DNA from: a virus | Virus record (IMG/VR): IMGVR_UViG_3300001686_000028 | Location: 1-22,864 of that record | DNA length: 22,864 bases | Strand: one strand, 5' to 3' | Part shown: positions 3,975 through 17,205 of the stretch, piece by piece | Layout: every line of letters starts with the position of its first letter | Position numbering within the stretch: the stretch's first letter is position 1 | Position numbers and translations under genes: made by a program | The notes under the pieces: generated by a model | Told to the model about the DNA's origin: nothing | What the model saw: only the letters and a program-made list of their open reading frames with translations | The model's database searches: none

Positions 3975-4714
3975 CCGCCGCCGCCTCGCTCTACCGCAAG
4001 TTCGGCGCCCTCTCCCTCCCGCTCGACTCAAGCGATCCCGCTACTGACCTCGCGTCGCTCGACCCCGCGCGCGACATCCTGCTCGACCTGTTCGCCGCTG
4101 CCATCACGGCAGAGCTCGGCGGAGTTTGGCCGCTTGCGGTCTCGGGTTCAGCCCTCTCCGACTCCTCGCCGGTCGCGCAAAAGCTTCCGTCGATGCCGAC
4201 GCCTGAGGCGCTGGCCGAGATGAAGACGGGGTGGCCGCTGCTCTGCGTTTCCCGCGCAACAAGTGGCCAATCCGGATTCTCCGACTTCACGCTCGAGATG
4301 AGGCAACTCGTCCAACGCTGGGACATCGACTACATCCTCTGCCCGCTGACGCTCGGCAACCTGCTCCGCGTGCAGGACGTGCTCCCGACCGTCGGCAAGA
4401 CGTTCGAGATGGTGATCGAGAAGGGTGGCCACGCCGCCTACCGCTCGGTCCAGGTCGGAAACTCGTTCCTCACGGCCAACGCACTCGGCTCGGGTGAGAA
4501 CTGCTGCAACTTCTGGCGCTGCGAAGTGAAGGACATGGCGCTCGGGCCCGCCTCCTTCTCGTCGAAGGACCCCAAGTATTACGCCTGCGGGCTCACGCTC
4601 GAGACGGTCGAGATCGTCACTGAGCTCGACGGCGAGTCGGTGCCGCTCGACGGGGTGACAGGAACGTTCGGTCTCACGCAGAGCGGCGACCCGTCAATCA
4701 TCGTCCGCGGCTGA
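3971..4714 (+). CDS. Unassigned neck or tail-terminator-region protein, 247 aa
   Basis: The product has a helical N-terminal third (for example ARDILLDLFAAAITAEL at about residues 34-50), a middle with mixed helices, and a beta-rich C-terminal half with several Cys (CCNFWRCEV near 177-185). Start ATG overlaps the preceding stop as ATGA. It lies where Mu-like phages carry tail-terminator or neck genes, and its length and mixed fold are compatible with that role. This is inferred from gene order; I see no diagnostic motif. Confidence 0.55.
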   Translation: MTAAASLYRKFGALSLPLDSSDPATDLASLDPARDILLDLFAAAITAELGGVWPLAVSGSALSDSSPVAQKLPSMPTPEALAEMKTGWPLLCVSRATSGQSGFSDFTLEMRQLVQRWDIDYILCPLTLGNLLRVQDVLPTVGKTFEMVIEKGGHAAYRSVQVGNSFLTANALGSGENCCNFWRCEVKDMALGPASFSSKDPKYYACGLTLETVEIVTELDGESVPLDGVTGTFGLTQSGDPSIIVRG

Positions 4715-4717
4715 CCC

Positions 4718-5176
4718 ATGGCCTTCGAGATCACGAATCTCGCTGAGCTCGAGCGCCAGCACGATCGCTTCCTCGCCGAGAACGAGCGCGCCATTGCGGA
4801 TGCGCTTGATCTCGCTGGGCGCCACGGCGTCGAACACGTTCAGCAGCATCCCGAGTTCAAGCCGCACACGGGCGCGCTACAGAAGGCGACGAGCTACCGC
4901 ATCGTTCGCATGAGCAACGGCCGAGTGCTGAAGCTCGACAACTCGAGCAAGCATGCCGACGCGACCGACACGGGCGCGAAGCCTCACGTCATCCTACCGA
5001 GGCGCGGCCGATTCCTTCGCTTCATTGGTCGTGACGGTCGCACGGTGTTCACCCGCCGCGTGAATCACCCGGGCAACAAGCCCTACAAGTTCATGTTCTT
5101 CGCGACCGACGCGGCTGACCGCGCGTTCCGACAGGACATGAGCCGCCGAATGAGCGACCTCGCGTCGCGGTTCTAA
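4718..5176 (+). CDS. Head-tail completion protein, HK97 gp10-like / Mu gpG-like
   Basis: The 152-residue product begins with a long helix (residues 5-40), followed by HTGALQKATSYRIV (about 49-62), then a basic beta region and a C-terminal helix with AADRAFRQDMSRRMSDL. The helix, TGALQKAT-type segment, strands and C-terminal helix containing the late Phe/Arg residues is the familiar pattern of HK97 gp10 family and virion-morphogenesis proteins, which act at the neck or tail-tube end. It starts three bases after the previous stop. Assignment is by pattern and position. Confidence 0.6.
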   Translation: MAFEITNLAELERQHDRFLAENERAIADALDLAGRHGVEHVQQHPEFKPHTGALQKATSYRIVRMSNGRVLKLDNSSKHADATDTGAKPHVILPRRGRFLRFIGRDGRTVFTRRVNHPGNKPYKFMFFATDAADRAFRQDMSRRMSDLASRF

Positions 5177-5284
5177 CAGCAACTCTCGGGCGCCTTCGGG
5201 CGTCTCAGCCGCCGCGCCGTCCGGCGGGCACCACGTCGTCCCTACCCGACGCTGGGCCCAAGACGGCAACTCCACGGAGCCTCA

Positions 5285-5638
5285 ATGGGTCTCAAGTTCT
5301 ATCCGCGCCCCGGCCATTTGGTCACGTTCGCGAGCGGCCACGCAATTGGCCAGCTCTCCAGGTTCGTCGGTCGCACGCTTGCGACTTCTGACCGCAAAGG
5401 CGTCGCTGGCGCGTATGCGGCCGACGCCGAGCCCGTCGAAGTGCCCACCGATGGCCCCGACGCCGCTCACCTGATTCGCCAAACGCAGAAGGGCGGCCTC
5501 TGGGCTGCCGATGCGGCGACCGCCGCCGCGTGTGGCGTCGAGTTCGTCGCGCTCGAGAAAGACGCAGACGGCGAGTGGATGCCGGCGCCGAAGAGCGCCC
5601 CCGCTCCCGAAAAACCCAAGCCGAAAGCCGAGGTCTGA
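5285..5638 (+). CDS. DUF2635-like small protein preceding the sheath
   Basis: In Mu-like phages a small DUF2635 protein (Mu gp38) lies immediately before the sheath gene, as here. The 117-residue product has an N-terminal PRPGHLV segment, a region around GLWAADAATAAACGVEF (about residues 71-87), and a Pro/Lys-rich tail. It is longer than typical DUF2635 proteins of about 50-80 residues. GGAG at 5276-5279 gives a good ribosome binding site. The function of the family is not well defined; a sheath-assembly accessory role is plausible. Confidence 0.5.
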   Translation: MGLKFYPRPGHLVTFASGHAIGQLSRFVGRTLATSDRKGVAGAYAADAEPVEVPTDGPDAAHLIRQTQKGGLWAADAATAAACGVEFVALEKDADGEWMPAPKSAPAPEKPKPKAEV

Positions 5639-5641
5639 TAG

Positions 5642-7195
5642 ATGGCACTTCAACCGATCCTCGGCTATCCGAGCGACTACCGGGCCCCCTTCACTGCCGT
5701 TCAGATCGACTTTGCCCAAGGGCCGAGCACGTCGAGCGGTCCAGGTCGAAGCCCGATCTACATCGGGCCGAAGACGAGCGCTGGCTCCTGGACGGTCGGC
5801 ACCGTCTACAAGGTCTCGCGCGAACAAGACGTGATCGACGGCGCTGGCGCGGGCTCGTTCCTGCACCGGATGCTCCGCATGCATCTGCTCGTGGACAAGG
5901 GCGCGACGCTCTACGCCATGTGCTACGCGGCATCGAGCGGCGGTGGCATCGCGACGGCGACCGGCACCATCACGATCAGCGGCAGCCCGACCGCGACCGG
6001 CAACGTCACGACGACCGTTTGCGGCGAGGACATCACCACGTCCTTCAGCACGACGGACACGCCGTCGACGATTGCGGCGAACCTCTCGGCGCAGATCAAC
6101 GCGAAGACGTTTCTCCCCCTCACGTCCTCGCCCTCCGCGGGCGTCATCACGCTCACGGCGAAGATCGCGGGCGCGTCGTCGGGTGACGGCACGGTTCCGG
6201 TCCTCCGCTTCCGCTCGAGCCCCGACCCCGGCAAGGGCATCACCGTCGTCACCTCGGGCGCGGCGCTCGGCATCTCGACCGGTGTCTCGGGCGCGGACGG
6301 CGCAACGACCGAGGTCGCCAACCTCACGAGCGCGCTCGCCGGTATCACGAACAGCCGCTACTACTACATGGGGTTCTCCCTGTGGTCGAGCGCGGCCGCG
6401 ACCGTGATTCGGACCCACGTGCTCAACAAGAGCACACCGAACCCGGGCCTCCGCTGCCGTGCCTTCATGGGCTACCCGGGCGCCGAGACTGCGCTCACGA
6501 CGATCGCGAACGCCAACAACTACGAGCGCCTCCACTTCGTCAATCAGGAGAACTCCGACCACGACGCGGCGGAGCTCTGCGCGCAGGTACTGGCGATCCA
6601 CCGCAAGATGGAAAGCATCCCGGCGGGCTTCGTCCCGGACAACTACCGCGGCCCCGACTGGCTCATTCGGCCCGTCTACGACAACAACGACGTTCCGACG
6701 CAGACCGAGGTCAACACCGCGGTCACGAACGGGATCTGCATCATCTCGAGCGACCCAAGCGGTTCGTTCCTGGTGATGAGCGTGAACTCGCGCAGCAAGG
6801 ATGCGACCGGCTCGCTGAACGACTTCCGCGCGACCGAGACACACCGCGTGTCGTTCATGGACTCGTTCGCGGACACGTGGCTCGCGCGCCATCAGGTGAC
6901 CTACTTCGGATTCAAGCTGAAGCCCGATGCCGTGCTCGCGGATGGCACGGTGGATGTGAATCAGAAGCTGCCGCCGAAGACCGTCACGCCGAGCCGCTAC
7001 ATCCCGTTCGTCGCGAAGATCATCGACGAGTTCGAGGAAGCCGGCATGTTCCAGAACGCCACCGACTGGAAGGCGTCGCTCCGCGCGAACATCGACCCGC
7101 TCAACAACGGGCGACTCGAACTCGGCGACTCGGGCAGGACGATCGATATTCTGCATCAAACGAGCCTAAGGCTCGCGGAAGTATCCCCGGGTTGA
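5642..7195 (+). CDS. Contractile tail sheath protein (Mu gpL-like)
   Basis: The 517-residue product is the expected size for a sheath subunit, which polymerises around the tube and contracts to drive it through the envelope. Residues 1-95 form an N-terminal domain with SSGPGRSPIYIGPK. Residues about 95-200 are a Thr/Ser/Ala-rich beta insertion typical of surface-exposed variable sheath domains. The C-terminal half contains the conserved-looking GFVPDNYRGPDWLIRPVYDN region (about 330-350), the TETHRVSFMDSFADTW segment, and a terminal helix-strand ending in RLAEVSPG. The tube gene follows directly, as expected. GAGG at about 5629-5632 precedes the ATG. Confidence 0.88.
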   Translation: MALQPILGYPSDYRAPFTAVQIDFAQGPSTSSGPGRSPIYIGPKTSAGSWTVGTVYKVSREQDVIDGAGAGSFLHRMLRMHLLVDKGATLYAMCYAASSGGGIATATGTITISGSPTATGNVTTTVCGEDITTSFSTTDTPSTIAANLSAQINAKTFLPLTSSPSAGVITLTAKIAGASSGDGTVPVLRFRSSPDPGKGITVVTSGAALGISTGVSGADGATTEVANLTSALAGITNSRYYYMGFSLWSSAAATVIRTHVLNKSTPNPGLRCRAFMGYPGAETALTTIANANNYERLHFVNQENSDHDAAELCAQVLAIHRKMESIPAGFVPDNYRGPDWLIRPVYDNNDVPTQTEVNTAVTNGICIISSDPSGSFLVMSVNSRSKDATGSLNDFRATETHRVSFMDSFADTWLARHQVTYFGFKLKPDAVLADGTVDVNQKLPPKTVTPSRYIPFVAKIIDEFEEAGMFQNATDWKASLRANIDPLNNGRLELGDSGRTIDILHQTSLRLAEVSPG

Positions 7196-7276
7196 AATTC
7201 GTAATGAATCCGCGCGTTTACGCTTAGCAGCGAACCGAACGCGCCCCCGCGGCTTTCCCGCCGCCGAAGGACATCA

Positions 7277-7645
7277 ATGGCACTCTTTCAAGGCCTACGG
7301 CTGCGCCTCATCATCAATGGGGTTCAGCAGATCACTCAGACCGAGATTTCGGCTGACTTCGACTCGAACAACCAGCCACTCGAAACGCTCGAGGGACTCG
7401 TCGGTTTCACGCCAGGCGCCAAGCGCGTCACGATTACTGGCACGCAGGTAGTCCCGGTCGGTGGCCTCGAGTTCGACTTCGTTGCCAAGAGCGACGATCA
7501 GTCGGTGAACAGCATTCAAATCCCGATCGGCTCGAAGTCGTACATCGGCGACGGCGTGTTCAGCAAAGTCACGGTCAGCCAGGCGACGGGCAAGGCCACG
7601 GAAGCGAACTTCACGTGGGTCGGGTTGATGACGCCTCTGAAATAG
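7277..7645 (+). CDS. Tail tube protein (Mu gpM-like)
   Basis: At 122 residues and located directly after the sheath, this is the tube subunit that stacks into the inner conduit. The sequence begins MALFQGLRLRLIINGVQQI and is a compact beta-barrel-like protein with repeated strands (VTITGTQVVPVGGLEFDFVAK, broken by turns) and a final hydrophobic strand. Myophage tube proteins of this family are about 115-120 residues with this strand-rich, small design. AAGGA before the ATG gives good translation initiation. A 194-base gap follows before the next gene, larger than elsewhere in the operon. Confidence 0.82.
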   Translation: MALFQGLRLRLIINGVQQITQTEISADFDSNNQPLETLEGLVGFTPGAKRVTITGTQVVPVGGLEFDFVAKSDDQSVNSIQIPIGSKSYIGDGVFSKVTVSQATGKATEANFTWVGLMTPLK

Positions 7646-7839: not shown

Positions 7840-8622
7840 ATGACCGAACCCACAACGAAGCTCACCGCCAACGCGATGATCTCCACCCTGCTCGAGGGCG
7901 GACCGTCGCTGCCGTGGAAGCTTCAGCGCAAGAAGGCCGACGGCACGCGGGAAGAGATCCCGTACCGGATGCAGGTCCTTCGCGTCGAGGAGAACCTCGC
8001 GGCGCTGAAAGATGCGCAGGACACCGCGAAGACGCGCGGCGAAGTCCAGGGCTACGGCGACATCTACAAGGAAGCGCAGGCGCACGAAGTGCTGCTCCGC
8101 GCCATCCGCACCGACGAGAAGCACGAGCGGCCCGACGGCACCAGCTACTACCCGCAGATTTTCAGCGCGACCGAGCAGCTGCGAGCGTCGCTCACTGAGC
8201 TTGAGATGGCGGCGCTGCTGAACGCGTACCAGATCACCAAGAGCACGTTCGCGGTCGTGGAAGGCCTCGAGGGGCACGACGCCGAGTCGTGGATCGAGAG
8301 GTTGAGTGATCCGCTCAAGGCCCCTTTTCATCTCTCCGAATTGGACTCTGCTCACTGGCCAGCTTTGATCCTTCTCCTGGCCAGGCTCGCAGCCGGCCTC
8401 TTGCGGGAACTTGGCCGCGAGCCACAGAGCTCGGCGCCTTCTTCGGAGTCAGAGCCCGAGACCTCCACCTCCTCCACTGGCTCCTCTGGTCCGCCGCCGT
8501 CCGCGTTGAATACGGGTGACGAGCCGGGCGTCGCGCCGATCGAAGTGAGCGGCGACACGCTCCTCTCGGCTGAGGATGCGGCCGCGCTCGTGGCGAAGCG
8601 TAAGGGCGGAGCGAAGCCGTGA
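7840..8622 (+). CDS. Tail assembly chaperone-like protein
   Basis: Position between tube and tape measure identifies the probable tail assembly chaperone, which coats the tape measure during assembly. The 260-residue product has an N-terminal domain (1-80) with SLPWKLQRKKADGTREEIPYR split by turns, a helical centre (about 85-185), a hydrophobic helix (HWPALILLLARLAAGLL, about 171-187), and a low-complexity Ser/Pro/Glu-rich tail (195-235). I chose ATG 7840 because upstream codons are poor, although no Shine-Dalgarno is present. Many phages make a G/GT pair by frameshifting; here both parts seem to be in one frame. The stop overlaps the next GTG start. Confidence 0.6.
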   Translation: MTEPTTKLTANAMISTLLEGGPSLPWKLQRKKADGTREEIPYRMQVLRVEENLAALKDAQDTAKTRGEVQGYGDIYKEAQAHEVLLRAIRTDEKHERPDGTSYYPQIFSATEQLRASLTELEMAALLNAYQITKSTFAVVEGLEGHDAESWIERLSDPLKAPFHLSELDSAHWPALILLLARLAAGLLRELGREPQSSAPSSESEPETSTSSTGSSGPPPSALNTGDEPGVAPIEVSGDTLLSAEDAAALVAKRKGGAKP

Positions 8623-10787
8623 GGTTGGAATATACCATATCGGCCGATGCTCGGCAGTTGCGGACCGTACTCCGCGGCGTCGAGCAGGAAGCCCGCTCGA
8701 GCAGCCGGCGCATCGGCCGCGAGACCCAGGCCGCCATGAATGGGCCAGGTCGAGCGCAAGCAACGCAGGCGCGTCGCTTCGACGAGTCGCAATCGCGCGC
8801 CGTCGCTCGAGCTCAAGAATCACTCGACCGGCAACGCAGCCGGGCGGTCCTCTCCAACATCAAGGCGGAGGAGCGGGAGCGCATTCGCGCCGATCGCGCG
8901 GCGTCTTCGGCGGCTGAATCTCTCGACAAGCAGCGTTCGCGCGGCTTGATGCAGCAGTTCCGCGAGCAGGAGCGAGCGCAGGCCAAGGCGAACTCGATGC
9001 GGGCTCGCTCGGCTGAGCGCATCGGCCACGGCGCGGCGCGTTCCGTCATGGGCGGAGTCGGCACCGTGGCTCGCATCGGCGGCGCGGCGCTCGGACTCAT
9101 TGGCGGCTTCAGTGCTGCCGGCGCAATCGAGGATCAGTTCGCGATTCGTCGCAAGGCGAGCGTCCTCGCCAACCAGTCGGAAGCTCCCGAGACGAAGGGG
9201 GCCATCGCGAAAGAGGCGATGGGCGTCAAGGGATTCACGGGCGAAGAGTCGCTCGACTTTCTCACGAACTTTCATGAGAAGAGCGGCGACCTCGGCGCGG
9301 CGCGCGGCGCGCTGCAAGACATGGCCCAGCTTGCGCTGGCGACCGGAACCAACTTCGATGAGCTCGGCTCTGCTGCTGGCTCGGCTTTCACGGTCGTCCG
9401 CGATCAGGTCAAGGACCCGCAGGAGCGCCTTCGCGTCCTGAAAGAGGTCATGACCGCCGTTGCCCAGCAGGGCTCGATGGGCGCGATCGAGATGCGCAAT
9501 CTCGTGGATGGCATGTCGGAGCTCGGCGGCGCCACGCGCTCGTTCGTTGGCGGCCCCGCCCGAATCCTCAAGTCGATGGGCGGGCTCGCCCAGATGGCGC
9601 TACAGCGCGGCGGCGCGGGCAGCCCTGAAGAGGCCGTGACGGCGGTTGCGCGGTTCGCCACCGACATCCCCGAGCACGGCAAGGAATTCGCCAAGCAGGG
9701 GATCGGAATCTACGCCGACAAGGGTCACACGCAGCTTCGTGCTCCCGAGCAGATCCTCGCGGACATGCTCCAGAAGACCGGGGGCGACCTCGGCAAGATG
9801 GGCGAACTCTTCGGCGTCCGCAGCCAGAAGGTCGCACGCGGCCTCTCGCCGCTCTACGGGCAGGCCGAGCGCGAGAACGCGGCGCTGCCAGCGGCACAGC
9901 GACGCAAGAAGGGCGAAGCGGGCAAGGAAGCGGTGCTCGCCGAGTTCGAGCGCTTCGCTGGGGCAACCCGAAGCGAAGAGGAGCTCAAGGCGCAGGCGGC
10001 ATCCCGTCTCGCCGACCCCGATCTCCAGGTCAAAGAGACGATGAAGCAGTTCAACGCTGCGGTCGGCACGGAGCTGATCCCGGTCTTGACTCGCGCGATC
10101 CCCAAGTTCGCCGAAGCCATCCCGGCGATCGGCCGGTTCACAAGTTCGGTCGCCGGCCTTGCCGAGTGGCTGATGGACAACCCGATCAAAGGCGTCGGGG
10201 CCATCATCGCGGCGAGCGTCGCGAAAGACGTTGCGGGCGCCGGCCTCGGCTCGCTCATCAGCAAGCTCCTCGTGGCCGCGTTCGCGGGAGAAGCGGCGAG
10301 CGGCGCCGCGGCGGCTGGTGCGGGCGGCCTAGCCACAGGCGCTGGCGGCGCAGCGGCAGGCGTCGGGCTTGCGCTCGGCGGTGCAATCGCGGCGGCTGTC
10401 GCTGGCACCGCAGCGGCCGGCTACGAGGGCTATACGCTCACGCAGCAGAGCGGCGGCCTCGCTGGCGTCGGCGCCGGCATCGGCGGCGTATTGGCCGGCA
10501 GGGGCTACGCAGGCGGCGTCGACGACTACATGAACGAGCAAGCGCGCAGCGCTAGCGGCGCCCCGGGGAAGGGCGGTGGCACATGGGCGCCAGGCCAGGC
10601 TCGGTCGGACTACGGCCCGCACCCCGCCGGTCCGTCGATGCAGGCCCAAGTCAAAGAACTCTTCGGCTCGAGCACCAAAGACCTCCAGTCGGCCGCGAAA
10701 GACATCAGCGCCGCCGCCGCAACGCTGAAGGCGAACGCCAACACGAACGGGCGCGACCCACGCGGCGCACCGATCAAGCCGGGCTAG
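8619..10787 (+). CDS. Tail tape measure protein
   Basis: The 722-residue product sets tail length and is held in the tube lumen; at the usual 0.15 nm per residue it predicts a tail near 110 nm. Residues 1-140 form a charged Arg/Glu/Ala coiled coil with a 33-residue repeat (ESLDRQRSR at 67-75 and ESLDKQRSR at 100-108). Hydrophobic Gly/Ala-rich segments lie at about 145-170 and 525-620, as is usual for tape measures that insert into the host membrane. The C-terminal end is Pro/Gly-rich. The start is GTG at 8619, overlapping the preceding TGA. No lytic transglycosylase or peptidase motif is evident. Confidence 0.88.
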   Translation: MRLEYTISADARQLRTVLRGVEQEARSSSRRIGRETQAAMNGPGRAQATQARRFDESQSRAVARAQESLDRQRSRAVLSNIKAEERERIRADRAASSAAESLDKQRSRGLMQQFREQERAQAKANSMRARSAERIGHGAARSVMGGVGTVARIGGAALGLIGGFSAAGAIEDQFAIRRKASVLANQSEAPETKGAIAKEAMGVKGFTGEESLDFLTNFHEKSGDLGAARGALQDMAQLALATGTNFDELGSAAGSAFTVVRDQVKDPQERLRVLKEVMTAVAQQGSMGAIEMRNLVDGMSELGGATRSFVGGPARILKSMGGLAQMALQRGGAGSPEEAVTAVARFATDIPEHGKEFAKQGIGIYADKGHTQLRAPEQILADMLQKTGGDLGKMGELFGVRSQKVARGLSPLYGQAERENAALPAAQRRKKGEAGKEAVLAEFERFAGATRSEEELKAQAASRLADPDLQVKETMKQFNAAVGTELIPVLTRAIPKFAEAIPAIGRFTSSVAGLAEWLMDNPIKGVGAIIAASVAKDVAGAGLGSLISKLLVAAFAGEAASGAAAAGAGGLATGAGGAAAGVGLALGGAIAAAVAGTAAAGYEGYTLTQQSGGLAGVGAGIGGVLAGRGYAGGVDDYMNEQARSASGAPGKGGGTWAPGQARSDYGPHPAGPSMQAQVKELFGSSTKDLQSAAKDISAAAATLKANANTNGRDPRGAPIKPG

Positions 10788-11132: not shown

Positions 11133-12080
11133 ATGACCGATCTCCTGCTTCAACTCCAGCGCGCAAGCTGGCGGGAAATCGAATTTCCCGTCATGGCGTC
11201 GCGGGACTTCGGGTTCACGCAGGAACAGGCCGAAAAACGCTTCCTCTTTCAGGATTCTCAGCTCGTAGAGAGCATCGGCCGCAAAAACCCGACCTACAAG
11301 TACATCATCCCTTTCCGCGAGAACATCGCGAAGGGCCCGTGGAAGAACCTCTACACCGAGGTCTACCCCGACTTCCTCGACGCCTGCCTCGATCGCACCC
11401 GCGGCGTCCTCGTAGACCCAGCGCACGGCGCGCTACCGGCCAAATGCGTCTCGTTCCGCGAGACGATGTCGGTAAACAAGCGTGACGGCGTCGAAGTCGA
11501 GGTCGAGTTCATCCGCTCGCCAGCCGAGGGCGACATTCTCGAAGACCCCGGCGCGACCGTCCGCACGCTCGAGAACGCGCAGTCGGTTGCGGGGGCGTTC
11601 GACCGCGCGATCACCAAGATCCAATTCAATGACCAGCCGCCGCCGAAGCCCACCATCAGCCCGCTCGACGCCGTGAGCGCGGTGACGACGCAGGTCAGCG
11701 TTGCTCAGCAGAAGGTCGCCGCGGCCTTTGGCGATGCCGCTTTCCGAGTCGAGAAGGCGTCCGCGAGCATCGACAAGCTCAAGGACCCGAACAATCAGCC
11801 GATTCTTCAGCAGGCCGCACGCCTTCGCGACGCTCTCCTCGGATTCGAGGACCGCACCGACCCGACTGGCGTTCGGCCGCTTCGTCGAGTCACGACGGCA
11901 AGCGACCTCACAGTCTCGGCGCTCACCCGAAAGCTCGGGATGAAGCTCGACGACCTCGTGCGGCTGAATCCGTGGCTCGCGCGCTCCCCGCTCGTTCCGT
12001 CGGGCACGCAGATCCGCGTCTTCTCCGACACCATCAAGCCCGCCAATGCCCGGTCAACCAGCGCCGCCAGATCCGGATGA
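11133..12080 (+). CDS. gpN-like DNA circularisation/baseplate protein with C-terminal LysM-like domain
   Basis: The 315-residue product starts with the DNA_circ_N pattern seen in Mu gpN-type proteins: a short aromatic N-terminal segment (ASWREIEFPVMASRDFG, about 11-27), then GRKNPTYKYIIPFREN. Despite the family name, these proteins act at the baseplate or tail tip. The centre is helical (about 180-245). Residues 253-300 resemble a LysM-like fold, ending PLVPSGTQIRVF, with the typical spacing of a small tail-protein-X-type domain. Fusion of the two modules is seen in other Mu-like phages. The downstream hub gene overlaps its last 35 bases. Confidence 0.72.
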   Translation: MTDLLLQLQRASWREIEFPVMASRDFGFTQEQAEKRFLFQDSQLVESIGRKNPTYKYIIPFRENIAKGPWKNLYTEVYPDFLDACLDRTRGVLVDPAHGALPAKCVSFRETMSVNKRDGVEVEVEFIRSPAEGDILEDPGATVRTLENAQSVAGAFDRAITKIQFNDQPPPKPTISPLDAVSAVTTQVSVAQQKVAAAFGDAAFRVEKASASIDKLKDPNNQPILQQAARLRDALLGFEDRTDPTGVRPLRRVTTASDLTVSALTRKLGMKLDDLVRLNPWLARSPLVPSGTQIRVFSDTIKPANARSTSAARSG

Positions 12081-13596
12081 CGACCGGCTCACGGTAGAGC
12101 TCGAAGGCGTCGGATTTCAGCCGAACCGAATCCTCTCCTACCGAATCAACACGCAGTACACGACGCCGACCGACAGTTGGGAATTCGTCGTCTACTCGGA
12201 GGACGATCCACGAGGACTACGCCGCCGCTTTCGGCCGCTGCAGCCGATCCGACTCTACATCGCCGGCAACCTGCAGGTCATTGGGCGGATCGACAAGATC
12301 GAGGGGACGGGGGAATCGGGGGCCGCGCTCAAGGTGAGCGGGCGCGACTATCTCGCCGACCTCGTTGACTCGACGGTCGACCCGCAATTCCAAATCAAGA
12401 AGAGCCAGGACATCGGCGCGTTCTTGCTCGACCTCTTGAAGCCCTGGGGCATCACGACGGTCTTCGGGAACTCCAACCTGACGCGCAACGCCCTCACGGG
12501 TCGCAAGCCGTTCACGAAGAACCCGGCCAAGCACTACAACTCGGCCAAGCTCGAAGACACGAAGGCGTCGGAGAACCAGGGCGTCTTCGAGTTCGCGAAT
12601 CGCGTCGTGGCCCGCCACGGCTTCATGATTCTGCCGGCTGGCACCCGCGACTCGATCGTCGTGGATGCGCCGAACTACGAGCAAACGGCGCTCTATTCGG
12701 TCTCTCGCCCTGGCAACATCCTGAGCGGCACAGCGAGCCGCGACTACACCGACATCCCGACCGTCACGATCGCGCATGGACGCATGGGCGGCAGCTCGCC
12801 AGGCGAGGAGTCGCCGAGTGGGCAATCAACTGGCGCGGTGTTTACGCCGGCAGCTGGCACACCAGCTGGCAAGCAGGGCCAGTTTGCCGCGAACCCGAGC
12901 AACGACGTACAGGGCACCGGTAGACGGCCGGGCTCTACGATAGGCGGCAGCGGCTCTGGCTTCGCCGGCAACCCTTCCAACGATACACAGGGCACGGGCC
13001 GGCGCGACGGGACCAGTCGCTCGCAGTTTGCCTCGAACCCGTCGAACGACGTGAGGGGCACGGGGCGGCGCACGGATGCCGACCCGGGGCCGTCCGCTGC
13101 GGGGCCGACGCTTGGCGGCAAGGCGAGCGGCAAGGACCGCTTCGGCACCTTCGACGAGACGGGCGCGAGCTCGCTTGGCCGGATCCTCGAAGTACAGCGC
13201 TGCATCACGAGCGACGACGGCGTCATCGTGGTTCGCGAGAAGCGATTCGATCCGAAGAAGCCCGACCACACGATCTACGGCTTCGACTTCCCCGTCTACA
13301 AACCGCTCTTCTATCGCGACAAAGACAGCCGCAACGACGAGCAGCTGAACTACTCGGTTCGCCGAGTCATCGCGGAGAAGCTTCGCGCGACCCTGACCTA
13401 CAACTGCACGGTGCGCGGGCACGTCGAGCCGAAGAGTGGCGCCACGTGGGCGGTCGATACGCTCGTCAACGTTCGCGACGAGGTCGAGGACGTGAACGAA
13501 GCGATGTGGATTCTCGAGCGGACGTTCGAGAACGACGGCACATCGGGGCCTGTGACTCACCTGTCGATGGTTCGCCCAGGGTCCTTTGTTTTCTAA
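12046..13596 (+). CDS. Baseplate hub protein, Mu gpP / gp44-like, with internal repeat insertion
   Basis: This 516-residue protein is the probable central hub that links the tube to the spike. The N-terminal beta domain (residues 10-110) includes NTQYTTPTDSWEFVVYSED and IGRIDKIEGTGESGAALKVSGRDY, separated by turns, a typical gpP/gp27-like hub start. The C-terminal domain (about 385-516) has NYSVRRVIAEKLRATLTY and ends in LSMVRPGSFVF. Between them, residues about 255-365 are a Gly/Ser/Pro-rich insertion containing three imperfect copies of FAxNPSNDxxGTGRR. This makes the protein longer than the usual 350-400 residues. The ATG lies inside the preceding gene. Confidence 0.78.
   Translation: MPGQPAPPDPDDDRLTVELEGVGFQPNRILSYRINTQYTTPTDSWEFVVYSEDDPRGLRRRFRPLQPIRLYIAGNLQVIGRIDKIEGTGESGAALKVSGRDYLADLVDSTVDPQFQIKKSQDIGAFLLDLLKPWGITTVFGNSNLTRNALTGRKPFTKNPAKHYNSAKLEDTKASENQGVFEFANRVVARHGFMILPAGTRDSIVVDAPNYEQTALYSVSRPGNILSGTASRDYTDIPTVTIAHGRMGGSSPGEESPSGQSTGAVFTPAAGTPAGKQGQFAANPSNDVQGTGRRPGSTIGGSGSGFAGNPSNDTQGTGRRDGTSRSQFASNPSNDVRGTGRRTDADPGPSAAGPTLGGKASGKDRFGTFDETGASSLGRILEVQRCITSDDGVIVVREKRFDPKKPDHTIYGFDFPVYKPLFYRDKDSRNDEQLNYSVRRVIAEKLRATLTYNCTVRGHVEPKSGATWAVDTLVNVRDEVEDVNEAMWILERTFENDGTSGPVTHLSMVRPGSFVF
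12880..13077 (+). repeat. Three imperfect tandem repeats in the hub gene (FAxNPSNDxxGTGRR)
   Basis: Repeat cores begin at the Phe codons at 12883, 12961 and 13027 (residues 280, 306 and 328), with spacings of 26 and 22 residues. The core NPSND and GTGRR motifs are conserved in all three, while the linkers vary. Confidence 0.8.
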
Positions 13597-13914
13597 GTGT
13601 CGGGCTGCAACTTCTCACTCCCGGGGATATCGCTCCCGGGCCTCAGCATTTCGCTACCCTCGCTGCCTGGTCTGCCGACGTTCGGCATCGCGCTCCCCGG
13701 CTTTCGGCTTAACCTGCGGATCCCCGCCATCTCGATTCCAGGGCTGAGCCTCTCGATCCCTTCGCTGCCCGGGCTGCCGAGCTTCGCGGTGAACCTGCCG
13801 GGCTTCCGCTTGAATCTGCGGATTCCGGCGATCTCGCTGCCCGGCTTGAGCCTCTCGATTCCGAGCCTTCCGGGGCTTCCGACATTCAGCCTCCGCTGCC
13901 CATTGGACGCATGA
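13597..13914 (+). CDS. LPG-repeat protein between hub and spike, 105 aa
   Basis: This small protein is almost entirely built from a 34-residue unit: residues 11-44, 45-78 and a partial 79-97, each reading ISxPGLSxSxPSLPGLPxF then a xLPGFRLNLRIPA half. Cys4 and Cys101 lie just outside the repeats at the two ends. The only charged residues in the repeats are Arg. Start is GTG at 13597, immediately after the hub stop, and the stop overlaps the spike start (ATGA), so it is tightly coupled. No family is recognised. A rod-like extended or beta-solenoid structure that links or caps hub and spike is a reasonable guess from position, not shown by sequence. Confidence 0.75.
   Translation: MSGCNFSLPGISLPGLSISLPSLPGLPTFGIALPGFRLNLRIPAISIPGLSLSIPSLPGLPSFAVNLPGFRLNLRIPAISLPGLSLSIPSLPGLPTFSLRCPLDA
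13627..13887 (+). repeat. 2.6 copies of a 102-bp tandem coding repeat
   Basis: Units start at 13627, 13729 and 13831. The period is exactly 102 bases (34 codons). Protein identity between units is high while synonymous positions differ, which suggests conserved protein repeats rather than a very recent duplication. Confidence 0.85.
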
Positions 13915-14546
13915 CCGACCTCATCGACATCGGCTCCGCTCGCCGCGACGCCGCGACGAACACGGTCCTCGTCCAAGCGAAGGCAGCGCAGATCGGCGCC
14001 ACGCCCGACGACGCCCCGAGCTTCGACAGCGCGCCCGTCTTCGGTCAGCTCGGAATCACAGCCGTACCGTGGCCTGCCGACGAACGCGGCAAGGCACAGG
14101 GCACGGTCGACGAGACGGTGCCTGGCCACAACGGCGTCATCACGAGCATCCGCGACGCTCGAGCGGCCGGCATCGTTCAAGAGCTCGGGCCGGGCGAGAC
14201 CGCGATCCACTCGACCGGCCCCGATTTCGACTCGCTCGTCCTGCTCAAAAAGCAACTCGCCGCGATCATGGTCGGCGACGACTGCGCGATCGTGATGGAC
14301 CGCGAAAACAAGCGGTTCACCATCTCGTGCTTCGGGCTGCATTTCGAGATGAGCGAAGCGAACGGCGTAGTCCTGACGACCGACGGCGGCGCGATGCTGC
14401 AACTTCACGGCGCGGTCGCGAACCTGATGGGCCAAGTCGTGCTCGGCGGTCGCAATCCGATTGGTCCACTCTGCTGGAGCCCGACTCCCGTTGTCGGCGT
14501 GACCGGATCCACTGCCCCAACCTTCGGAGTCTTCATTGGCGTCTGA
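13911..14546 (+). CDS. Baseplate spike protein, gpV / Mu gp45-like
   Basis: The 211-residue product follows the hub as spike genes do. It begins with a hub-binding N-terminal part (residues 1-70), continues with an OB-fold-like beta region including GPGETAIHSTG and IVMDRENKRFTISCFG, and then a repetitive beta section (MSEANGVVLTTDGGAMLQLHG, with turns), as in gpV-type trimers. The C-terminus is hydrophobic and Gly/Thr-rich (GVTGSTAPTFGVFIGV). I do not see the HxH metal-binding apex motif that caps many such spikes. Start ATG overlaps the preceding stop. Confidence 0.65.
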   Translation: MTDLIDIGSARRDAATNTVLVQAKAAQIGATPDDAPSFDSAPVFGQLGITAVPWPADERGKAQGTVDETVPGHNGVITSIRDARAAGIVQELGPGETAIHSTGPDFDSLVLLKKQLAAIMVGDDCAIVMDRENKRFTISCFGLHFEMSEANGVVLTTDGGAMLQLHGAVANLMGQVVLGGRNPIGPLCWSPTPVVGVTGSTAPTFGVFIGV

Positions 14547-14811
14547 CGCATGGACGAGCACGAAGGCGTTCAGCGTCTACAACGTGCTCCTCAGAACCGG
14601 GCAAGCCATGACGGCCGACGAGCTCGTCGCGTGGCTTCAGAAGAACTTCCGCGAGGACATCGACGACGCCTATGTCTCGATTGGCGTCGGCTACCTCGCC
14701 GCCAAGGGCATGGTCGGTGTCACGGCTGACGGCAAATTCGGCCTGATGCGACCCAACGCGCGGGTGAAGCGCGTGAACGAAGACATCGACCTCGATTGGG
14801 CTAACCCATGA
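14536..14811 (+). CDS. Small winged-helix-like protein in the baseplate operon, 91 aa
   Basis: Start is TTG at 14536, supported by GGAG at 14526-14529 with six-base spacing; the coding frame continues upstream of the first in-frame ATG (codon 25). Residues 14-70 have a helix, a turn, a helix and a beta wing (TADELVAWLQKNF, then AYVSIGVGYLAAKGMVGVTADG), a pattern like winged-helix domains. The final segment is basic and then acidic. It overlaps both neighbours (spike before, ATGA after). A DNA-binding or purely structural role is possible. No family is recognised. Confidence 0.6.
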   Translation: MASDAWTSTKAFSVYNVLLRTGQAMTADELVAWLQKNFREDIDDAYVSIGVGYLAAKGMVGVTADGKFGLMRPNARVKRVNEDIDLDWANP

Positions 14812-15257
14812 GCGGCATTACAGCGATCTCCTCGACAACGACTCACGCGGCCAGCGGCGCGGACGTGTCAGTCGCGGGCTATCTAACGGGCGATCAGATT
14901 GCTCTGATGACCTCGCCGACCGGTACCGACTACCAGTGGGCGATCTCGTTGCCCTCGGGCTCGAATGCGCTCCGCGCCGGCCTGGCGGGCGACGACACGG
15001 CAACCGCTTCGTTCACGCCCGACGCGCCTGGCGTCTACGCCGTCAGTGTGACGGTCGATGGCACGGTCTACATCCTCCGAATCGGCGTCACGATGCTCGC
15101 GCAGAGTACGGCGCTTGAGGCGCTGCGGCTCTTGCCTGTGACGGACTCGCAGATCGCTACGCCATCGCTTGGGGCTGCGCTCTACTACTCCTCGACGCGT
15201 AACGCGCTCGCGATGAAGGGCACCGACGGCGTCGTCCACACGGTGAACCTCACCTGA
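14808..15257 (+). CDS. Baseplate-associated Ig/PKD-like domain protein
   Basis: The 149-residue product has an N-terminal beta region resembling a PKD or Ig-like sandwich: DYQWAISLPSGS, then TATASFTPDAPGVYAVSV at about 65-82. The last part (SLGAALYYSSTRNALAMKG) resembles short repeats in tail fibre and baseplate proteins. A similar N-terminal Ig-like domain is seen in the fibre gene at 21947. It is coupled to both neighbours. It probably decorates the baseplate or contributes to adsorption; the exact role is unknown. Confidence 0.6.
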   Translation: MSGITAISSTTTHAASGADVSVAGYLTGDQIALMTSPTGTDYQWAISLPSGSNALRAGLAGDDTATASFTPDAPGVYAVSVTVDGTVYILRIGVTMLAQSTALEALRLLPVTDSQIATPSLGAALYYSSTRNALAMKGTDGVVHTVNLT

Positions 15258-15688
15258 TGGCCGGCCTCGGGCTCTTCCCCATCGGAAGCACGCCGCTCGG
15301 CTCTGGAACGCCCGTCGTCGCATCTGCGCCGCCCAGCGACATCCCCGAGCAGGCGAACTTCCTCGACCCCGTCACGGGCGACTACGTGGTCCAGAGCGAC
15401 GGCGCACTTCAGCGCATGCCGAACACACGGCACCGCGTGCTGATGTGCCTCAAGACCGAGCTCGGTAGCGCGGCGCATGAGCCGACCGTCGGCCTCGAAC
15501 TCCCGAAGCGCATGGGCAAAACGTTCGAGCAGCAGGCGAAAGGCGCCGTCCTCTCGGCGCTCGAACTCATCGGCGACGACATCCGTATCGACGACGTGAT
15601 CGTCCTGCGCGTTGGCACCGGTCGCGCTGACATCACGGTCGTCTACACCGACCTCACTACCGGCAACTCCGACACCGTCACGGTCTGA
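15257..15688 (+). CDS. Baseplate wedge protein, gpW / T4 gp25 / Mu gp46-like
   Basis: The 143-residue product has a Gly/Pro-rich N-terminal arm (1-35) and then DPVTGDYVVQSDGALQ, a helix around RHRVLMCLKTELGS, and a longer helix (KTFEQQAKGAVLSALELI, about 91-108) followed by two strands (IDDVIVLRV and RADITVVYTDL). This matches the fold order of gp25-like wedge proteins. It lies directly before the gp47/gpJ-like gene, which is the standard order. Starts within TGATG. Confidence 0.72.
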   Translation: MAGLGLFPIGSTPLGSGTPVVASAPPSDIPEQANFLDPVTGDYVVQSDGALQRMPNTRHRVLMCLKTELGSAAHEPTVGLELPKRMGKTFEQQAKGAVLSALELIGDDIRIDDVIVLRVGTGRADITVVYTDLTTGNSDTVTV

Positions 15689-17205
15689 TGGCTAACCTCG
15701 AACCAGGACAGCTTTACGTCCCCGAGTCGGCGTCGATCGTCAGGAATGATTTCCTAACGGACTTCCGCTTGGCAGCTCGAGGATCTGGCGTCACGGATCC
15801 GAGCGTCGCGCCCGGGACCGACAACTGGTTCTTCGCAACGGCGGTCGCGAATGCGGCGATGCTCCAATACGCGAACATCGCGTCGATTCGCACGTCGCTG
15901 ACGCCGCTCGATGCAACGGGCGAAGACCTCGACCGCTGGCGCCAAGCTCTCGGCCTTCCCGTTGTCCAGCCCTCGCCATCCTCGGGCAAGCTCACCGTCA
16001 CGGTCGCGCCGGGGGCAACCGTCACCGTGCAGGACGGGCTCCAGTTCATCCTGCCGAACGGGCTCCGCGGCAAAGTCTCGGGCACGCAGACGGGAATCGC
16101 CGACGGCCAGGACATCAACGTCGTCGCGGTCGATACCGGTTCGGCCACGAACGCTGAAAGCGGTGTCAAGGTCCGCTTCGTCAATCCGCCGTTCAACCTC
16201 GCCGTCGAAGCGCGGGTCTCGATCGCCTCGCCGCTTACGGGCGGATTCGACGAAGAGACGGAGCCTCGCAAGCGCGAGCGCGTGCTCAATCGCCTCGCCA
16301 ACAGCCCCGGCGGCGGCAACTGGGGCCAGCTCCGCGAGATCGCCTTCAACGCGCTCCCGTCCGTCCAGGATTGCTACGTCTACCCCGCGGCGGGCGGCCC
16401 GAGCTCCGAGAAGGTGATTCTCGTCCGTGAGTTCGACCTCGACCGCAACGACTTTCACCGTGCGATGCCGTCGGGCGGCGTGACGCTCGTCCGCAACGCG
16501 ATCCAAAAGGCCAACAGTGGCTCGATCGAGATCATCGTCGACACCGTTTCTGAGCAACCCGCCGACGTGGCGCTCTACCTCAGCCTCCCCGATTCGTCCC
16601 TTGCGGGCGGCAACGGCCTCGGCTGGGTCGATCAAGCGCCATGGCCCCCCGTCGGCGACACGCACGTCACAGTAACGGCCATCGGCAGCACGACGCAGAT
16701 CACGATAAACGCTTCGACCGCTATCGCGCCGATCGCCGGGCTGCATCACATCACGTGGTGGGCGCCGGGCGATCAAACGCCGCGAACGGTCCTGATTACC
16801 GCGAAGAGCGGCGGAGCCGGCGCGTGGGTTTTGACGGTCGACACGCCACTCATCGACTCGGACGGCACGGGCGTCACGCTTGGCGACTTCATCTCGCCAG
16901 CTGCAGTCGGGATCACGAACTACCGCGACACGTTCCTTCGACTCTTCGACGCGCTCGGCGCTGGTGAACTCGTGACCCCCGCCTCCGGCGACACGCCACG
17001 CCGCCTTCGTCACCCGTTCATCTCGGATGGTGCGCAGATCGGAATCACGGGGAAGTTCCTCGCCGACTTCATCAAGGCGCACCCCGAGATTGACGACGGC
17101 GCGTTCTCGTACCTGCCGGTTTCTGCGCCCACGATTCCGGCGAGCGTTGACCTGCAGCCGAATGTGCTTTTGCCCAGAAACTTTGGAATTTACGTTGCTC
17201 CATGA
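15688..17205 (+). CDS. Baseplate wedge protein, Mu gp47 / gpJ-like, with insertion
   Basis: This 505-residue product is a baseplate J-like protein that joins wedges and triggers sheath contraction. The N-terminal region has DRWRQALGLPVVQPSPSSG, then strands near residues 95-180. The hallmark GGFDEETEPRKRERVLNRL lies at about residues 181-200, followed by NWGQLREIAFNA and DCYVYPAAGG. Between about 300 and 415 there is a beta-rich insertion (TVTAIGSTTQITINAS and similar) not expected in most 340-400 residue J-like proteins. The C-terminus resumes with a J-like domain. The stop overlaps the next start (ATGA). Confidence 0.78.
   Translation: MANLEPGQLYVPESASIVRNDFLTDFRLAARGSGVTDPSVAPGTDNWFFATAVANAAMLQYANIASIRTSLTPLDATGEDLDRWRQALGLPVVQPSPSSGKLTVTVAPGATVTVQDGLQFILPNGLRGKVSGTQTGIADGQDINVVAVDTGSATNAESGVKVRFVNPPFNLAVEARVSIASPLTGGFDEETEPRKRERVLNRLANSPGGGNWGQLREIAFNALPSVQDCYVYPAAGGPSSEKVILVREFDLDRNDFHRAMPSGGVTLVRNAIQKANSGSIEIIVDTVSEQPADVALYLSLPDSSLAGGNGLGWVDQAPWPPVGDTHVTVTAIGSTTQITINASTAIAPIAGLHHITWWAPGDQTPRTVLITAKSGGAGAWVLTVDTPLIDSDGTGVTLGDFISPAAVGITNYRDTFLRLFDALGAGELVTPASGDTPRRLRHPFISDGAQIGITGKFLADFIKAHPEIDDGAFSYLPVSAPTIPASVDLQPNVLLPRNFGIYVAP

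Follow-up and report, generated by a model that had tools for sequence, protein, structure and literature searches.

A three-unit proline-rich protein encoded beside phage tail spikes is a candidate spike-tip cap

Two designs are established for the sharp, closed tip required by contractile tails, tailocins and secretion systems: HxH-bound iron and PAAR. The spikes of P2, phi92, Mu and R2 close with a metal bound by an HxH motif (PMC10715212; HxH also in PMC10811340). The spikes of T4 and T6SS rely for closure on a separate pseudo-trimeric cap, gp5.4 or PAAR, a single chain with pseudo-trimeric symmetry placed on a trimeric beta-prism (PMC10715212). The end of T4 gp5 that lies under gp5.4 is blunt and hydrophobic (PMC4576200). 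The described modules nearest to the locus studied here are the Mu-type gpP hub/spike/gp46 modules of enterobacterial phages, which have the same gene order: tape measure, gpN, hub, spike, gp25/gp46 and baseplate J.

The window is the whole stretch of viral DNA that was analyzed, 22,864 nucleotides from IMG/VR record IMGVR_UViG_3300001686_000028. Its tail genes, all on the plus strand, encode a tail sheath (5642–7195; phrog_165, E 2.7e-48, and PF04984), a tape measure protein (8619–10787; phrog_28, E 3e-6), a DNA-circularisation-type hub protein resembling gpN (11133–12080; PF07157 and phrog_184), a gpP/gp44-like baseplate hub (12046–13596; phrog_177, E 7e-26, and a weak match to PF21929), a gp25-like baseplate wedge (15257–15688; phrog_43, E 3.5e-6) and a baseplate J-like wedge (15688–17205; PF04865, E 1.3e-16). 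The sheath gene at 5642–7195 shows that the tail is contractile. Two minor features of the module are recorded here. The hub carries an insertion of about 119 codons (12808–13164), mostly missing from the hub of a related locus, L002, with three copies of FA[AGS]NPSND[VT][QR]GTGRR (12883–12927, 12961–13005 and 13027–13071); the NPSND motif was seen in no other fetched locus. The gap between the spike and gp25 (14536–15257) holds two small genes, one of 91 aa and one of 149 aa, the latter with weak Ig/PKD-like matches; both have close counterparts in L002 and neither matches the family described below.

The open reading frame at 13597–13914 (plus strand) lies between the hub and spike genes. 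It begins with GTG and encodes 105 aa, with the sequence VSGCNFSLPGISLPGLSISLPSLPGLPTFGIALPGFRLNLRIPAISIPGL...CPLDA. The hub stop codon TAA (13594–13599 junction) directly abuts this GTG in the same frame, and the stop of the frame overlaps the spike start (ATGA). Fusion of the hub to this protein by stop read-through was considered and rejected, as the in-frame adjacency is not conserved and a one-base spacer in L002 breaks the frame. Comparison with the L002 homologue, which is 82% identical, gave a pN of 0.145 and a pS of 0.61 (dN/dS about 0.13). The gene is real, coding and under purifying selection, because this signal is confined to its own frame and is gone in the other two.

The first-pass annotation had described 2.6 units of a 34-residue repeat. 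The period stands, with 47 of 71 residue pairs identical (66%), a value set against a maximum of 32% that was never exceeded in 20,000 shuffles of the same residues at periods 20 to 45. The unit count, in contrast, is three: residues 7–40 (13615–13716), 41–74 (13717–13818) and 75–105 (13819–13911), all on the plus strand. Unit 3 lacks the hairpin, for which the sequence counterpart is both termini taken together, and it finishes in the C-terminal end CPLD-A. The bracketing of the repeats by Cys4 and Cys101 and the near absence of charge other than Arg, both proposed earlier, were borne out. These are the sole cysteines, there is no His, and the six charged residues are five Arg and one Asp. 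Cys4 (13606–13608, plus strand) is invariant in the alignments. Cys101 belongs to the C-terminal CPLD motif (13897–13908, plus strand), which recurs as CP[LF]D in nearly all family members, both in the alignments and among the pattern recruits.

The neighboring gene (13911–14546, plus strand) was modeled with AF2 from 28 homologues (pLDDT 76), giving an OB-fold at residues 1–84 and a beta-helix at residues 115–174. Foldseek placed phi92 gp138, eCIS spikes, R2 pyocin and the phiKZ and P1 spikes among its top matches, and VIA-align gave Z 8.5 to the Mu spike over 104 residues and Z 8.0 to phi92 gp138 over 170 residues. Although the VIA Z values are moderate, the Foldseek matches agree, and on this predicted fold the assignment of the product as a genuine central spike is secure. 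The same predicted OB-fold and beta-helix occur in the iron-tipped spikes P2 gpV, phi92 gp138, Mu gp45 and R2 pyocin, which form their own tip through HxH-bound iron. HxH was found in 0 of 34 in-group spikes, including that of the window.

Homologues of the three-unit protein were recruited with a DNA pattern for its C-terminus, [IL]P.F.h.CP[LF]D-stop. Scanning 2.9 million viral contigs yielded 25 stretches, nearly all encoding [LI]P-rich proteins of about 100–105 aa with an early Cys and a CP[LF]D end. In 257 Gb of bacterial and archaeal genomes the pattern found one member, L044, whose contig was assigned to a Burkholderiales genome bin, and a spike-profile search of 300 genomes from the order of that host gave no further copy. 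The family totals about 35 viral contigs, with each copy beside a tail spike gene. It is previously undescribed: no model in Pfam, PHROGs or NCBIfam describes it, and literature searches found no account of such a spike tip. A tblastn search of the window protein against 50,697 phage records with the low-complexity filter active returned nothing or the query's own record only, and a PDB sequence search with the family profile gave no real match. CBM39 (E 0.005) and other Pfam matches fell below the cut-off and were driven by composition.

Neighborhoods were mapped with HMMs built from the window and three relatives. All family copies map to one tail module, composed of tape measure, gpN, hub, spike, family gene, gp25 and baseplate J. 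To avoid selecting loci through the family gene itself, 32 loci were recruited independently with a hub profile. An intact family gene lies next to the spike in 28/28 of those with sequence across the region; three loci whose sequence ends before this position (L064, L071 and L078) are outside the count. In L075 the copy between hub and spike (about 7170–7500) appears to be broken by a frameshift, or by an assembly error, and its relatives have intact copies. The C-terminus-pattern recruits likewise all lie beside spikes. Homologues, from loci recruited independently of the neighborhood, lie only beside contractile-tail spike genes.

Three units were found in 33 of the 33 members examined, with a unit length of 31–36 residues across the family. 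The internal periods have means of 33.4 and 33.5 residues, and 32.9 remain when two periods are subtracted from the Cys-to-CPxD span. Measured from the first Cys to CPxD, the span equals 2.998 ± 0.031 periods in 27 well-anchored members (L006 and L077 were poorly anchored in the fit). Family members have a Cys at both ends, and the joined termini resemble an internal linker, as in L028, where FSVPCPFD + CNFDLP compares with FSVDLDIDLSLDLP. At the position of the C-terminal Cys, 39 of 54 internal linkers carry L, I or V. Closure length and internal period length do not covary across members, so the argument for a closed domain rests on the fixed total span. A fixed three-period span and linker-like termini are what a circularly closed three-unit domain would show.

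Within one protein the units are 72% identical, at a pN of 0.22 and a pS of 0.62, near saturation, against 38% for equivalent units taken from different homologues; for 49 of 60 units, the closest one was in the same protein. Because this identity persists despite nearly saturated synonymous sites, the likeness is kept by selection and does not reflect recent duplication, as three equivalent contacts would require.

How the spikes of this lineage are closed can be compared with the nearest outgroup, the Mu-type modules, whose hubs are 22–25% identical to the in-group hubs. There, HxH is present in 74/74 distinct spikes and the family gene is in none of the corresponding loci, whereas all in-group loci with enough sequence carry the gene beside spikes without the motif; the contrast is between two clades, represents few evolutionary events and may reflect a single one. 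PAAR (PF05488) was absent from a six-frame search of the window and other records, covering 28 viral or phage records, and its only matches were in a bacterial genome (G014), on contig C125 and not on the phage contig C169. The earlier statement that standard hub–spike pairs lack such a component holds for the Mu-type relatives, which have their own HxH tip, but not for T4 and T6SS, which have gp5.4 or PAAR (PMC10715212). Some gp5-type spikes have neither HxH nor an adjacent recognizable tip gene (L173, L176 and L170), so the absence of HxH is by itself no proof of a separate cap.

A second lineage has a similar protein. With a pattern for the unit core, we found two large phage contigs (L165 and L167) with an unrelated tail, which has a gp5-type spike (phrog_430), gp25 and baseplate J, none of them matching the in-group HMMs. 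There, a spike without HxH is followed directly by an open frame of 136 codons that has a Cys near both ends and three LPIPSIKFP units, at a period of 38. This version may derive from common ancestry with the main family or from convergence. In Pseudomonas phage Peetri, the slot just after a gp5-type spike without HxH is taken by PAAR. The spikes of IME392 and phiLo have HxH; those of RHph_TM40 and GXN1 lack it and have no recognizable cap beside them. In Alishewanella phage Slickus01 (L175), the slot held elsewhere by PAAR or the three-unit protein, next to a spike without HxH, contains a 285-aa hydrophobic protein (4527–5381) that starts MSICLP and ends ICF; it is possibly another kind of tip.

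We propose, with a probability of roughly 0.6, that the window protein is a monomeric cap with pseudo-threefold symmetry that closes and sharpens a blunt trimeric spike, an analogue of PAAR with unrelated sequence. A single chain would fold as three near-identical units around a pseudo-threefold axis, and the ring would close at the junction of its termini, probably through a Cys4–Cys101 staple. The cap would rest on the spike trimer at its C-terminal end, which is blunt and hydrophobic, with each unit contacting one spike chain, and would close and sharpen the spike for membrane puncture. Its job would be that of PAAR or gp5.4 for VgrG or gp5, or of HxH-bound iron for the P2, Mu and phi92 spikes. 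The closed fold, the Cys–Cys bond, the spike contact and the tip role are our inference. The observations in favor of the cap are the constant place beside the spike, the three units per chain that match the threefold spike, the selected likeness of those units, the linker-like joined termini, the spike fold predicted for the neighbor, a three-unit protein in the PAAR slot of the second lineage, and the presence of the gene with spikes that lack HxH and PAAR but not with the HxH spikes of the outgroup.

The likeness to PAAR proteins (T4 gp5.4 and T6SS PAAR) extends to small size, a gene next to the spike and spikes without HxH. A conical, pseudo-threefold fold on the spike end may be a further likeness: the three units per chain agree with it, but the AF2 model of the protein reached a pLDDT of only 39. 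It does not extend to sequence: there is no PF05488 match, no sequence relation was found, and [LI]P motifs dominate. The PAAR Zn center has His and Cys at the cone apex; with no His and a single pair of Cys, the window protein lacks the ligands for the published multi-ligand site, though it may use metal in another way. A cap that is PAAR-like in action, although failing the sequence tests for PAAR, is the most economical reading.

One rival is a chaperone or folding clamp dedicated to assembly of the spike trimer, which would be made next to the spike but stay outside the virion. It would account for the strict spike neighborhood, the small size and a family start codon that often overlaps the spike stop, and hydrophobic proline-rich strands could shield the spike C-terminus. 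We consider it unlikely, since it leaves unexplained the pairing of the family with spikes that lack an HxH tip, the use of the PAAR slot by the second lineage and the two conserved Cys.

Ranking after the chaperone, and improbable as well, is a homotrimeric rod, sleeve or adaptor, either joining the hub to the spike or making the spike longer. The position of the window gene between hub and spike favors it, and repeats with trimeric neighbors would suit a trimeric rod. That position, which the first-pass annotation took as its starting point, is confirmed in the window and shared only by L002/L074, L073 and L075; the commonest order is hub–spike–family, with the gene 3' of the spike or one gene later in most relatives. 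A rod would also be expected to vary in length among homologues, and the repeat number does not vary from three in any member examined. Of the rod, adaptor or tip-cap roles offered at first, the link to the spike and the tip cap are therefore retained, the hub–spike adaptor is dropped because of the gene order and the constant number of units, and the fixed three units make the homotrimeric rod less likely. Least probable is a proline-rich plug or membrane-active peptide, otherwise without structure, that the tail would carry at its tip or inside the tube and release as it contracts: its hydrophobic, almost uncharged composition and the lack of a usable AF2 model of the protein alone (20 homologues, with L029 left out as misplaced in the MAFFT alignment; pLDDT 39, pTM 0.22) would agree with this, but the failure may reflect only a shallow, repetitive alignment, and the fixed three-unit length, conserved Cys pair and selected unit identity better fit a folded symmetric domain.

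The universality of the family in one phage lineage and the absence of HxH there point to a third tip design. We judge it somewhat better than an even chance that a proline-rich, circularly closed three-unit protein, unrelated to PAAR, replaces the HxH iron tip in at least two unrelated phage tail lineages, as a third and previously undescribed way to sharpen a contractile spike. For structural biologists, the proposed cap is small and its binding is clearly predicted: each of its three like units would meet one of the three chains of the spike. Annotators gain a named target: in the deposited genome MW202476.1 (L003), the family gene (4932–5249) is unannotated and lies under overlapping CDS in other frames. 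That record is titled Siphoviridae, yet carries gp25 and baseplate J genes.
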